Shown piece after piece: positions 3,299-12,031 of a stretch of DNA of 21,579 bases. Within the stretch, counting starts at the first letter, position 1, and each line of letters opens with the position of its first letter. The DNA comes from a virus. The DNA lies in the IMG/VR virus record IMGVR_UViG_3300047318_000102, positions 1 through 21,579 of that record, one strand, 5' to 3'. The notes under the pieces were generated by a model. That model saw only the letters and a program-made list of their open reading frames with translations, was not told the DNA's origin and ran no database searches. The position numbers were made by a program, and so were the translations under genes.

Positions 3299-3564
3299 GC
3301 GATCTTGAGCGAGAGGTTGAGTACTGGAAGCGGGTGGCGGCATATCTGGCGAGCTGCCATGCGGCGACCATGCAGCACGAAGCATTGCTCAGCCGGACCA
3401 GCAAGGCCAGCAGGGAGCGATTCCGGGGCATTTGCAAGACCGCGGCATCGATGCTGCGCGGCAATGACGCAGGCATGCCATACGGCGCCGTCCGCCAAGG
3501 GGGAGACGCTTCCTTGAGGTCGGCGGCCGAGCGCTGCGAGCAGGCCATCAAGGAGGGAGCATGA
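3295..3564 (+). CDS. Hypothetical phage protein, 89 aa
   Basis: Starts MSDLEREVEYWKRVAAYLAS, a helical region, with further helices around SKASRERFRGICKTAASMLR and a C-terminal AAERCEQAIKEGA. Strong ribosome binding site AAAGAGGA directly before ATG 3295. Mostly alpha-helical and soluble; no known domain recognised. Its stop overlaps the next start, so it is co-translated with the candidate late regulator. Confidence 0.65.
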   Translation: MSDLEREVEYWKRVAAYLASCHAATMQHEALLSRTSKASRERFRGICKTAASMLRGNDAGMPYGAVRQGGDASLRSAAERCEQAIKEGA

Positions 3565-3965
3565 CGCAAGACGAATCAGCGCAAATCGAGGAACTGCTTC
3601 TGGCCTGGTACGCCTGGCAGCAGCGGGAATCCTTCCGGGAAGTCCGGGGCATGTGGTACCCGGCGCAGGACCAGACGTGCAAGCAATACCGGTCGGGCGA
3701 TGCCTGGGCCGCTGAGAACGACCAGTACGAGGCCGACGAGACAAAGCTGGAAGACCTCCAATCCGAGATCATCCAGCTTTGCATTGACGGCCTGACGGTC
3801 GAGCAGCGATCCGCTATCCAGATCAGCATGCGCAACAAGACGGGCCCGGCTGTCTGGCGGTCCAACCGGGTCGAGGATCAGCACCGGACGTATCAGGCGG
3901 CCAAGCTGGAATTGCTGCCGATGCTGCGCAGCCGGGGGCTGATCAAGGCGGAACTGGCGGCGTGA
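3561..3965 (+). CDS. Candidate late-gene regulator (Q-position protein), 134 aa
   Basis: N-terminal half is Trp/Gln-rich (ELLLAWYAWQQRESF, GMWYPAQDQ); C-terminal half from residue 68 is helical: SEIIQLCIDGLTVEQRSAIQ, then RNKTGPAVWRSNR (residues 91-103) and a last helix (AAKLELLPMLRSRGLI). The second half resembles sigma region-4-like folds of phage late regulators of the RinA/ArpU/antiterminator type, but I cannot assign it to one family. Position is the stronger argument: last gene of the early/middle operon, after ninB and an HNH gene, and directly upstream of a promoter followed at once by a terminator, as lambda Q lies before pR'. ATG 3561 follows AAGGAGGG and overlaps the upstream stop. 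Role is inferred. Confidence 0.5.
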   Translation: MTQDESAQIEELLLAWYAWQQRESFREVRGMWYPAQDQTCKQYRSGDAWAAENDQYEADETKLEDLQSEIIQLCIDGLTVEQRSAIQISMRNKTGPAVWRSNRVEDQHRTYQAAKLELLPMLRSRGLIKAELAA

Positions 3966-3972
3966 AAAGGGC

Positions 3973-4001
3973 TTGTAAACCGCAAAAAGATGTCCTATGA
4001 T
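3973..4001 (+). promoter_or_regulatory. Predicted sigma70-type late promoter
   Basis: TTGTAA (3973-3978) and TATGAT (3996-4001) are separated by exactly 17 bases, close to the TTGACA-17-TATAAT consensus. Transcription would begin near 4008-4009, about five bases before the left arm of a terminator hairpin. It is the only strong promoter-like signal I see in the window. Confidence 0.6.
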
Positions 4002-4012
4002 TAGCCGCAGAG

Positions 4013-4047
4013 AGCCCGCGTGCTGAGAAATCAGGCGCGGGCTTTTT
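4013..4047 (+). terminator. Rho-independent terminator immediately after the late promoter
   Basis: AGCCCGCG (4013-4020) pairs with CGCGGGCT (4036-4043); inside it CTGA (4023-4026) can pair with TCAG (4031-4034). A run of five T follows (4043-4047). A transcript from the promoter at 3973-4001 would be only about 40 nt if it stopped here. It may also end transcription from the upstream operon. Confidence 0.75.
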
Positions 4048-4060
4048 GCATTCCCGCATG

Positions 4061-4134
4061 GCTTAGGCGTGTCGCCTAGCGGACCGTCTTCCCGACAATC
4101 CCTATCCCCCAGCCGCATCAGGCGACACACCTAA
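4061..4134 (+). promoter_or_regulatory. Leader region with alternative RNA pairings upstream of the first late gene
   Basis: A local hairpin TAGGCG-TGT-CGCCTA (4064-4078), extended by GC/GC at 4061-4062 and 4079-4080, competes with a long-range pairing of TTAGGCGTGTCGCCT (4063-4077) with AGGCGACACACCTAA (4120-4134), 15 positions with one G-U pair. The 3' arm ends three bases before ATG 4138, where no Shine-Dalgarno is seen. Alternatively this repeat pair is a DNA element such as a cos or terminase-binding site. Confidence 0.45.
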
Positions 4135-4137
4135 ACC

Positions 4138-4353
4138 ATGGCCACTCGCAAGAAGAAGGCGGAAGAACCCGCCGAGACGATTGTCGCCTGCGAGAACTGC
4201 CGCTATTTCAAGCCGCTGGCGTCGCACAACGAATGCCGGCGTAACCCGCCCGCTGTCGTGCCGGATCTGTCCGATGGCGGGATGATGAGTGTTTTCCCGA
4301 TGGTCGGCCCGGGCGAGTGGTGCGGCGCGTGGGCGCCTAAGCTGAATAGCTGA
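4138..4353 (+). CDS. Small four-cysteine protein, probable zinc knuckle, 71 aa
   Basis: After a basic start (MATRKKKAEE) the protein has Cys18-x2-Cys21 (ACENCRYF), Cys33 (NECRRNPP) and Cys62 (GEWCGAWAP), a spacing that suits one zinc site. Short proteins with 'CxxCRyF...CRrnPP...WCG.w' are common in phages and prophages, without known function. It is the first gene of the predicted late transcript and lacks an obvious Shine-Dalgarno; the sequence just before its ATG can be buried in RNA structure. The TGA overlaps the ATG of the phosphoesterase gene (TGATG), so the two are translationally coupled. Confidence 0.7.
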   Translation: MATRKKKAEEPAETIVACENCRYFKPLASHNECRRNPPAVVPDLSDGGMMSVFPMVGPGEWCGAWAPKLNS

Positions 4354-5510
4354 TGGCAGACCTCCGCGACTACGCCACGCCGCGTCAGGCTGAGATCCTG
4401 GCGGCCATCGAGCAGCACGGCTCTGAGCGCAAGGCCGCTGCGGCGCTTGGACTGAGCCACGGCACGATCAGCGGCATGGTCGCCAGAGTAAAGCAGCGCG
4501 CCGCGCGTTCTGGCTACTCGCCCGAGCACGAGATGACGCACGTCGTCCCGGACGGCTATCTGGTCAAGGGCGTCTCGACGTACTTCGACGCAAACGGCAA
4601 TCCGCGCGCGCAGTGGGTGAAATCGAGCCTGGATGTGGAGCGCCAAGCCGAGATCATGCGTGAGGCATGTGCGGCCATGGCGGAGAGCCTGCCAAGGGTC
4701 AAGCCAGCCCAGCGCGCCGGCGACACAATCGCCGCGTTGTGCAATCTTGTGGTGTTCACCGACTACCACATGGGCATGCTGGCTTGGCACAAGGAGGGCG
4801 GCGATGACTGGGATCTGAAGATCGCTGAAAGCCTGCTGCTGACGAGCTTTGTGCACATGGTGGAGTCGGCGCCCAAGGCAGCAAGCTGCGTGGTGTCGAT
4901 TCAGGGCGATTTCCTGCATTCGGACGGCCTGCTGCCGGTGACGCCGGCCCACAAGCACGTGCTGGACACCGATGGGCGATTCTCGAAGATCGTCGCCTCG
5001 GCCATCCGCGTGCTGCGCCGGCTGATCGACCATGCGCTGGTCAAGCACGAGCGGGTGCACCTGGTGATCTGCGAGGGCAATCACGACGAGTCCAGCTCGG
5101 TATGGCTGCGCCAGATGTTCGCCGCGCTGTATGAGGCCGAGCCGCGGATGACGGTGAATGACTCGGAATTGCCGTTCTACGTGCACCAGCACGGCGAGAC
5201 CATGCTGGCGTTCCACCATGGGCACAAGGTCAGCAACGAGCAGCTTCCCATGCTGTTCGCCGCGCAGTACCCCAAGCTGTGGGGTGCGACGACCAAGCGG
5301 TATTGCCACACCGGGCACCGGCACCACGTGGATGAGAAGGAGTATGCCGGCATGATTGTCACGCAGCATCCCACGCTGACAGCCAGGGATGCACACTCTG
5401 CTCGCGGCGGCTGGATCTCGGGCCGGGCGGCAACGGCGATCACGTACCACGAACGATTCGGGCAGGTTGGGCGGACGATTGTCACGCCTGAGATGTTCGA
5501 GGCGGCTTGA
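4353..5510 (+). CDS. HTH domain fused to calcineurin-like metallophosphoesterase, 385 aa
   Basis: Residues about 9-50 form a helix-turn-helix (PRQAEILAAIEQHGSERKAA, then GLSHGTISGMVARV). From residue 130 the five metallophosphoesterase motifs appear in order: Asp137-x-His139 (FTDYHMG), Gly185-Asp186 (GDFLHSD), Gly242-Asn-His-Asp245 (GNHDE), His288/His291 (HHGHK) and Gly321-His-Arg-His324 (GHRHH). All residues for a two-metal centre are present, so it should be an active phosphoesterase or nuclease; Mre11/SbcD-like DNA processing or nucleotide hydrolysis are both possible. The DNA-binding N terminus favours a nucleic-acid substrate. It lies between the regulator region and the terminase genes, starts at a TGATG overlap, and may act in packaging, DNA end handling or counter-defence; these roles are inference. 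Confidence 0.85.
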   Translation: MADLRDYATPRQAEILAAIEQHGSERKAAAALGLSHGTISGMVARVKQRAARSGYSPEHEMTHVVPDGYLVKGVSTYFDANGNPRAQWVKSSLDVERQAEIMREACAAMAESLPRVKPAQRAGDTIAALCNLVVFTDYHMGMLAWHKEGGDDWDLKIAESLLLTSFVHMVESAPKAASCVVSIQGDFLHSDGLLPVTPAHKHVLDTDGRFSKIVASAIRVLRRLIDHALVKHERVHLVICEGNHDESSSVWLRQMFAALYEAEPRMTVNDSELPFYVHQHGETMLAFHHGHKVSNEQLPMLFAAQYPKLWGATTKRYCHTGHRHHVDEKEYAGMIVTQHPTLTARDAHSARGGWISGRAATAITYHERFGQVGRTIVTPEMFEAA

Positions 5511-5550
5511 CGATTGACTCACGCACGAGCCCCTTCAGCGAAGCAAAATT

Positions 5551-5566
5551 AGATCTGGGGAGATCT
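5551..5566 (+). promoter_or_regulatory. Hairpin holding the Shine-Dalgarno of the HNH gene
   Basis: AGATCT (5551-5556) and AGATCT (5561-5566) flank GGGG (5557-5560). Because AGATCT is self-complementary, the two copies pair and put the GGGG half of GGGGAG, the ribosome binding site of ATG 5568, in the loop and its AG in the stem. This could restrain translation of the endonuclease. Confidence 0.45.
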
Positions 5567-5567
5567 G

Positions 5568-6044
5568 ATGGCAGAAATCAAGACAAAGAGCGGGCACGTC
5601 ATCCTAGTGGACGACGAAGACTTTGAGCGATTTGGGCAGCACGGCTGGTATTTGGATAGCCACGGCTACCCAACCAGAAACGTTCCCCACCCTTCGCGGC
5701 CGGGCAAGAGAACGACTGAGAAGTTGCACCGGGCAATCATGGGATTGACCGTTGGCGGTGGCGGTGAAGTGGACCATGCGAATAGGGATCCGCTGGACAA
5801 CCGCCGCAGCAACCTTCGGCTTTGCACGAAGTCGCAGAATCAATGGAACAAGGGGGCCTACTCGAACAATTCGAGCGGCTTCAAGGGTGTCACCTTTGAT
5901 CGCAGCCAAGGAAAGTGGGAGGCGCGCATTCGCGTAGATGGACGAATGCGTCGTCTCGGTCGGTATAACGCGCCGGAGGCGGCTCACGCTGCTTATTGCG
6001 CTGCCGTGCATGAACTGCGTGGGCAGTTCGCCTGCACAAACTAA
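5568..6044 (+). CDS. Free-standing HNH homing-type endonuclease with AP2 DNA-binding domain, 158 aa
   Basis: HNH_3-type nuclease: LHRAIMG with His54, EVDHANRDPLDN with Asp69-His70, and NRRSNLRLCTKSQNQ with Asn82, followed by SNNSSGFKGVTFDRSQGKW through RLGRYNAPEAAHAAYCAAV (about residues 99-147), an AP2/integrase-type DNA-binding domain. This two-domain layout is typical of mobile endonucleases that insert next to their cleavage site. It is not inside an intron: the neighbouring phosphoesterase and terminase genes are intact. Hand count over about 118 codons gives roughly 70% GC at third positions, a little below the structural genes, which fits later acquisition. It has its own strong Shine-Dalgarno in a hairpin and a terminator behind it. 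Confidence 0.85.
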   Translation: MAEIKTKSGHVILVDDEDFERFGQHGWYLDSHGYPTRNVPHPSRPGKRTTEKLHRAIMGLTVGGGGEVDHANRDPLDNRRSNLRLCTKSQNQWNKGAYSNNSSGFKGVTFDRSQGKWEARIRVDGRMRRLGRYNAPEAAHAAYCAAVHELRGQFACTN

Positions 6045-6083: not shown

Positions 6084-6119
6084 GCCTCGCTGGCTTCGGT
6101 CGGCGGGGCTTTTCTCTTT
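6084..6119 (+). terminator. UUCG-loop terminator behind the HNH gene
   Basis: GCCTCGCTGGC (6084-6094) pairs with GTCGGCGGGGC (6099-6109) over 11 positions including three G-U pairs, closed by a C(UUCG)G tetraloop (6095-6098) and followed by TTTTCTCTTT (6110-6119). It stands between the predicted late promoter and the terminase genes, so late transcription has to pass it. A smaller hairpin GGTCC-TCCC-GGACC lies just before (6063-6076). Confidence 0.75.
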
Positions 6120-11988: not shown

Positions 11989-12010
11989 AACCCCGCTTCG
12001 GCGGGGTTTT
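11989..12010 (+). terminator. UUCG-loop terminator behind the coat gene
   Basis: AACCCCGC (11989-11996), TTCG loop (11997-12000), GCGGGGTT (12001-12008) and TTTT (12007-12010). A perfect 8-bp stem with a stable loop but a short T-run. Probably trims or partly ends the coat transcript so that downstream tail genes are expressed less. Confidence 0.75.
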
Positions 12011-12031
12011 CTGCTTTCTGGAGCCTGACAA

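Follow-up and report, generated by a model that had tools for sequence, protein, structure and literature searches.

Between the early and the late genes of a 21.6-kb virus record (hereafter the window, i.e., the whole stretch of DNA analyzed here), a gene for a 134-aa protein is followed by a promoter and then by a terminator. Is this a late antitermination switch, and is the 134-aa protein its antiterminator? A sequence-only reading of the window had likened the arrangement to the Q, pR′ and tR′ order of lambdoid phages. The positions it gave for the gene at 3561-3965, for TTGTAA at 3973, for the 17-nt spacer and for TATGAT ending at 4001 were all exact. The genes and signals of the window are as follows.

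2312-2752, + strand: NinB/Orf recombination mediator (PF05772, phrog_72), end of the early/middle block
2749, + strand: HNH-like gene, followed by small ORFs and then by the 134-aa gene
3561-3965, + strand: gene of the 134-aa protein, ATG start, proposed late antiterminator
3973-3978, + strand: -35 element TTGTAA of the late promoter
3996-4001, + strand: -10 element TATGAT, spacer 17
4008, + strand: predicted transcription start, 7th base past the -10 hexamer, placed by spacing only
4013-4047, + strand: intrinsic terminator, tR′-like, with hairpin AGCCCGCG-TGCTGAGAAATCAGG-CGCGGGCT and 5 T
4138-4353, + strand: small 4-cysteine protein (phrog_15838), first gene past the switch
4353-5510, + strand: DNA repair exonuclease/metallophosphoesterase (phrog_704, 3.4e-126), second gene past the switch
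5568-6044, + strand: HNH ORF in the late operon
6084-6113 (hairpin 6084-6109), + strand: second terminator-like hairpin, 3′ of the HNH ORF and 5′ of the small-terminase-like gene
6217, + strand: small-terminase-like gene
6492, + strand: large terminase
7757, + strand: portal
10974, + strand: major head protein
11989-12012 (hairpin 11989-12008), + strand: third terminator-like hairpin, directly 3′ of the major head protein gene

The 134-aa gene, the promoter and the terminator, in this order, are thus placed between the NinB/HNH genes and the terminase-capsid operon. Reading this order as a late switch held up: the unit is conserved, protein and module are associated in both directions of search, and the predicted fold resembles 21Q and AlpA. 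We conclude that the region is very probably a late antitermination switch of the Q type, belonging to a temperate phage and built on an antiterminator family unrelated in sequence to the known ones.

The terminator had been described as clean and as lying about 5 nt past the predicted start, and its fold is indeed stable. The hairpin at 4013-4047 reached -22.3 kcal/mol (z -4.9), and the segment 4007-4050 folded at -33.7 with z -7.9, which none of 200 shuffles equaled. The RNA up to the terminator would measure about 40 nt, and its predicted shape is a single long hairpin with a bulge and a loop of 4 nt. The four further terminator-like hairpins counted earlier in the late operon were an overstatement, i.e., on the + strand we found two convincing intergenic ones, at 6084-6109 and at 11989-12008, and a weak third that is intragenic (4251-4291). 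Rfam matched nothing in the window.

The 134-aa protein had no meaningful match in Pfam, PHROGs or NCBIfam, and a profile search of PDB sequences with it gave no match; this agrees with its earlier description as a protein not recognizable as a Q. No match was obtained either when the window protein and four relatives were compared directly, by tblastn, with 50,697 phage records, and no Pfam family, PF06530 and PF03589 included, was found in the window protein or in 48 family members. Neighbor searches yielded the close viral contig L002 (93%), the relative in L013 (50%) and, in L008, a fragment only, and a genome scan added further family loci in Cupriavidus and Paraburkholderia. By profile search, the family was present in 46 of 398 Burkholderiaceae genomes (about 12%); among 369 genomes of the class outside Burkholderiaceae, with few candidates scored per genome, it was found only in the query genome. 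Alignment of 48 members showed L13, W16 and W19 in helix 1, and N92, R103, Y111, A114 and K115 in the HTH half, to be invariant. The curated Q families PF06530 and PF03589 were absent from the 120 Burkholderiaceae genomes sampled, and the 134-aa family may therefore fill the Q role in Burkholderiaceae prophages.

A neighbor search based on the exonuclease returned 61 loci, and the family was present in just three of them, L008, L013 and, by protein search, L002. We hence conclude that late control is exchanged among these phages. Locus L003 (1-760) encodes a 95% identical exonuclease and has neither the 134-aa gene nor the module, with a small HTH-like ORF instead, which suggests that late control was swapped as a unit.

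Is the promoter-terminator pair a constant companion of the family? The strict unit of promoter, 17-bp spacer and terminator was found downstream of the gene at 33 of 51 loci, and none occurred in 645 kb of background taken from those loci at other positions and on other strands. It is this comparison that makes the late promoter significant. Taken alone, the promoter does not rise above chance, since a single-sequence scan of the window gave 3 promoter-like sites at 3.6 expected. In the late region, 3973 is the sole + strand site with both hexamers near consensus; this absence of another good promoter, together with the two later terminators, fits a Q-type switch. The strict test was failed by 18 of the 51 loci, in some cases owing to a divergent motif, a terminator beyond the scanned stretch or a degraded prophage.

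The family module consists of TTG at -35, a 17-bp spacer, a TA...T -10 element and then a GC-rich hairpin with a T-run. The distance of the hairpin from the predicted start is usually 20-35 nt; for L002 and the window it is 4-5 nt, and L066, from a Cupriavidus necator SHC 2-3 prophage, has, by eye, a short leader like that of the window. The -35 element lies at most 31 bp from the gene end at about half of the aligned loci, and at the remaining ones 0.2-2.9 kb of other genes stand between gene and module, with the promoter-terminator pair intact. The pair of L002 is 87% identical to that of the window despite an extra ORF in between. Promoter conservation peaks at the -35 hexamer together with the four bases 3′ of it (TTGTAAACC; AACC after TTGTAA) and not in the mid-spacer, and judged by this pattern the -35 element with the following AACC is a candidate protein-binding site. 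A family member in L127 (G328:C67:48806-49198) carries an in-frame TGA, and the module downstream of it is intact.

We also searched from the module back to the protein. The pattern TTGTAAAC-N15-TANNNT-N18..48-GCCCGC gave 9 matches over 398 Burkholderiaceae genomes; seven were real modules with a leader hairpin, and 7/7 lay downstream of a family gene. The matches in G378 and G204 have neither leader hairpin nor A-rich linker and look like chance, and the reversed control gave one match in each of two genomes. A second pattern, in which the -35 element was free after TTG and a leader CGCCC..AGAAA was required, gave 6 matches in the same 398 genomes, 6/6 beside a family gene, and none in the reversed control. 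Pooled, both patterns identified 11 distinct modules, none of them without the family, though just 46 of the 398 genomes have it. As the patterns were built from family-linked modules, the association speaks for this module class only.

The AlphaFold2 models of the window protein and of its relative L135 had pLDDT values of 79.8 and 82.6, respectively. They predict a long first helix, a flexible part that contains a conserved Cys and spans about 20-25 residues, and then three helices, the last two of which form an HTH with a 12-residue inter-helix loop. Nearest structural neighbors of the models were sigma region 4 domains. The L135 model also matched 21Q on RNA polymerase (6jnx_P, Z 6.0, 103 residues, rmsd 6.9) and AlpA (7xyb_G, Z 5.7, 99 residues; 7xya_G, Z 4.9), all at Z <8, a Z of about 6 being below the level for safe matching of helical folds. 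7xya_G and 7xyb_G were also present in the Foldseek list, but at E values of about 8-10. 21Q and AlpA, for both of which antitermination is proven, aligned along the whole chain of the L135 model, most sigma factors along its C-terminal half only. In the structural comparison with Q21 that had been proposed for this protein, 6jnx_P was listed for the L135 model, and neither 21Q nor AlpA was in the structural match list of the window protein's own model. Taken together, the models are suggestive of a 21Q/AlpA-like fold in the 134-aa family.

21Q combines sigmaR4 with an anti-sigma-like first helix and a ring-forming second segment; its long H5-H6 loop reaches into the minor groove, and its W26 is reported to contact the beta′ dock (PMC6606751). 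The predicted layout of the 134-aa family is alike, with a sigmaR4-like HTH, a long loop and a comparable helix 1, and the L-x2-W-x2-W of helix 1 is common to the family and the 21Q relatives. Overall sequence similarity to 21Q was not detectable. With hhalign, the comparison with 21Q/PF06530 aligned a helix-1 stretch only (probability 1.7%, E 0.03) and was otherwise empty, and by the tests run the 134-aa protein hence does not belong to the 21Q sequence family. The PF06530 relatives among the viral contigs were all identical and of no use for a profile.

For comparison of the switch itself, we used the phage-21-type phages SfI (NC_027339), ST64T (NC_004348) and Salmonella phage SE10. In SfI and SE10, the -35 element begins 6 bp past the Q stop codon, a gap of 6-7 bp being common to this type and the window, and in the phage-21 type the hairpin begins at about +3 of a leader of about 46 nt, compared with about 40 nt in the window; both leaders are one bulged hairpin with a 4-nt loop. 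The start spacing of phage 21 pR′ equals that of the predicted start at 4008. The leader is thus very short, as had been stressed, and with a nearly equal geometry in phage-21-type leaders the "instant terminator" is known anatomy. The short leader is no novelty; the protein family is new.

Three other systems bear likeness to the window. AlpA of Pseudomonas aeruginosa is a sequence-unrelated antiterminator at a promoter followed by an intrinsic terminator, as here (PMC7969949, PMC9371919), and has the 21Q fold without sequence similarity (PMC9371919). Its GGGACG (ABE) between -35 and -10 is absent from the window spacer at 3979-3995 (ACCGCAAAAAGATGTCC), and its CACGAT pause element is absent from the window; AlpA is also, unlike the 134-aa protein, a regulator of the host/pyocin type and has two additional helices. 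In the Caulobacter gene transfer agent, GafZ acts at the promoter of a phage-like cluster; it is an antiterminator that falls outside the classical Q families, has a sigma-like HTH by prediction and is in these respects similar to the window switch, from which it differs in working together with GafY and IHF and in having a long leader (PMC11150451). Lambda Q with pR′-tR′ has the same logic and gene order. It is a PF03589 protein, to which the 134-aa family has no match, and the lambda leader, unlike that of the window, is much longer and includes a -10-like pause element.

Lambda Q, 21Q and AlpA need a sigma-dependent -10-like pause, and 21Q has a TGAGCA direct-repeat QBE. The -10-like pause sequence has been described as a requirement of all Q proteins (PMC9371919). 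Neither pause sequence nor QBE was found in the window, i.e., the leader contains no -10-like pause element (NANNNT, with A at 2 and T at 6), and the promoter contains no 6-bp direct repeat of the QBE type (TGAGCA twice, 8 bp apart). Just 14 of 47 family leaders have a -10-like pause at 3/6 or better. A QBE-like direct repeat seen by eye in L013 and L008 failed across the family. The locus would work like a Q switch, yet it departs from the known families in sequence, pause element and binding motif, and we therefore regard it as a variant of the Q switch.

Most relatives have a longer leader with an extra small hairpin, which has a CG step around +11 to +18, and an A-rich linker. The small hairpin is missing in the window, L002 and L066. 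Its covariation is modest (13 of 26 fully paired compared with 11.7 expected after arm shuffling; mean pairs, P 0.002), and we hence gave it no weight. In the leaders of L106, L140 and L139, the 8-mer TTCGCTCG stands at about +10 to +17, similar to its position in the initial transcript of lambda pR′, where lambda polymerase presumably pauses. Directly past the terminator of L067 (about 5508-5620) there is a tRNA-like sequence; the phage-21-type SfI has tRNA-Asn and tRNA-Thr there.

We propose the following course of events. Host sigma-70 polymerase would start at about 4008, just downstream of the 134-aa gene, and stop about 40 nt later. With this stop at the 4013-4047 terminator, the late operon (exonuclease, terminase, portal, head, tail) would be silent. 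The early operon directly upstream would supply the 134-aa protein, whose sigma-region-4-like HTH may bind the promoter on the TTGTAAAC -35 segment or beside it. From there, in the manner of 21Q and AlpA, the protein would pass to polymerase at the RNA exit channel. The polymerase so modified would read through the 4013 terminator and those at 6084 and 11989, and packaging and head genes would be turned on. As to how the antiterminator loads, one possible, tentatively held scheme dispenses with the sigma-dependent -10-like pause: it would take the -35 segment TTGTAAAC after sigma region 4 has left, with polymerase meanwhile detained by a consensus-type pause, by the small leader hairpin around +16, or by both.

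Could the 134-aa protein instead be an ordinary activator that sits at the -35 element and recruits sigma-70 polymerase, with the hairpin just ending early transcription from upstream? A predicted sigma-region-4-like HTH is the fold of many activators, the -35 element is conserved yet non-consensus, and the terminator would also halt read-through from the early operon. However, dozens of loci have the terminator at most 60 nt past the promoter, where it would block a promoter that depends on an activator alone, and the unit is kept when other genes split the module from the regulator. The predicted match to 21Q and AlpA along the full length also argues for an antiterminator, and we consider the activator unlikely. 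Antitermination might also be brought about by another phage or host factor, e.g., the product of a neighboring small ORF, with the 134-aa protein in an assisting role. At about half of the loci, genes of unknown function do separate the gene from the module, but these intervening genes vary by locus, the 134-aa family is the common partner, and about half of the aligned loci have nothing between gene and promoter, so that we regard such a factor as very improbable. Least credible, by a little, is a small-RNA gene made up of promoter and terminator, with a hairpin RNA of about 40 nt here and 55-75 nt in relatives as its product and the 134-aa gene as a neighbor of different function: the leaders of most relatives do share the conserved small hairpin and A-rich linker, but each of the 11 distinct modules from the two reverse searches has a family gene beside it, the small hairpin is gone from the window leader, the location between early and late genes is constant, and the Q leaders of known PF06530/21Q phages have similar hairpins.

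The probable Q-type late switch is of wider use. For annotators, the family is a marker of the early/late boundary and of the late promoter in Burkholderiaceae prophages. It would add one more sequence-unrelated protein to the small set of 21Q, lambda Q, AlpA and GafZ, for which action at the RNA exit channel is either proven or supposed. Finally, the missing usual pause element lets one ask what a Q-type factor truly needs in order to load.

The genes past the switch showed some features of their own. The exonuclease/metallophosphoesterase at 4353-5510 carries a helix-turn-helix at its N terminus (Pfam HTH_50, 8.8e-07), which is unusual as a fusion partner of a DNA repair exonuclease, and many phage relatives can be aligned along nearly the whole protein. 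The ORF at 5568-6044, by its reading a homing endonuclease of the HNH/AP2 type, is an insertion that separates the small-terminase-like gene from the exonuclease, with a terminator hairpin of its own behind it at 6084. Right past the terminator, at 4055-4138, we found a long imperfect inverted repeat (CATGGCTTAGGCGTGTCGCCTAGCGG ... CCGC..AGGCGACACACCTAAACCATG; z -6.7 against shuffles) that spans the start codon of the 4138 gene. Its central motif GCGG.CCG..CCCCG.CA is kept in L002 and L066, and in L066 the stem sequence differs with complementarity still present. The repeat is possibly a packaging site or a structured leader.
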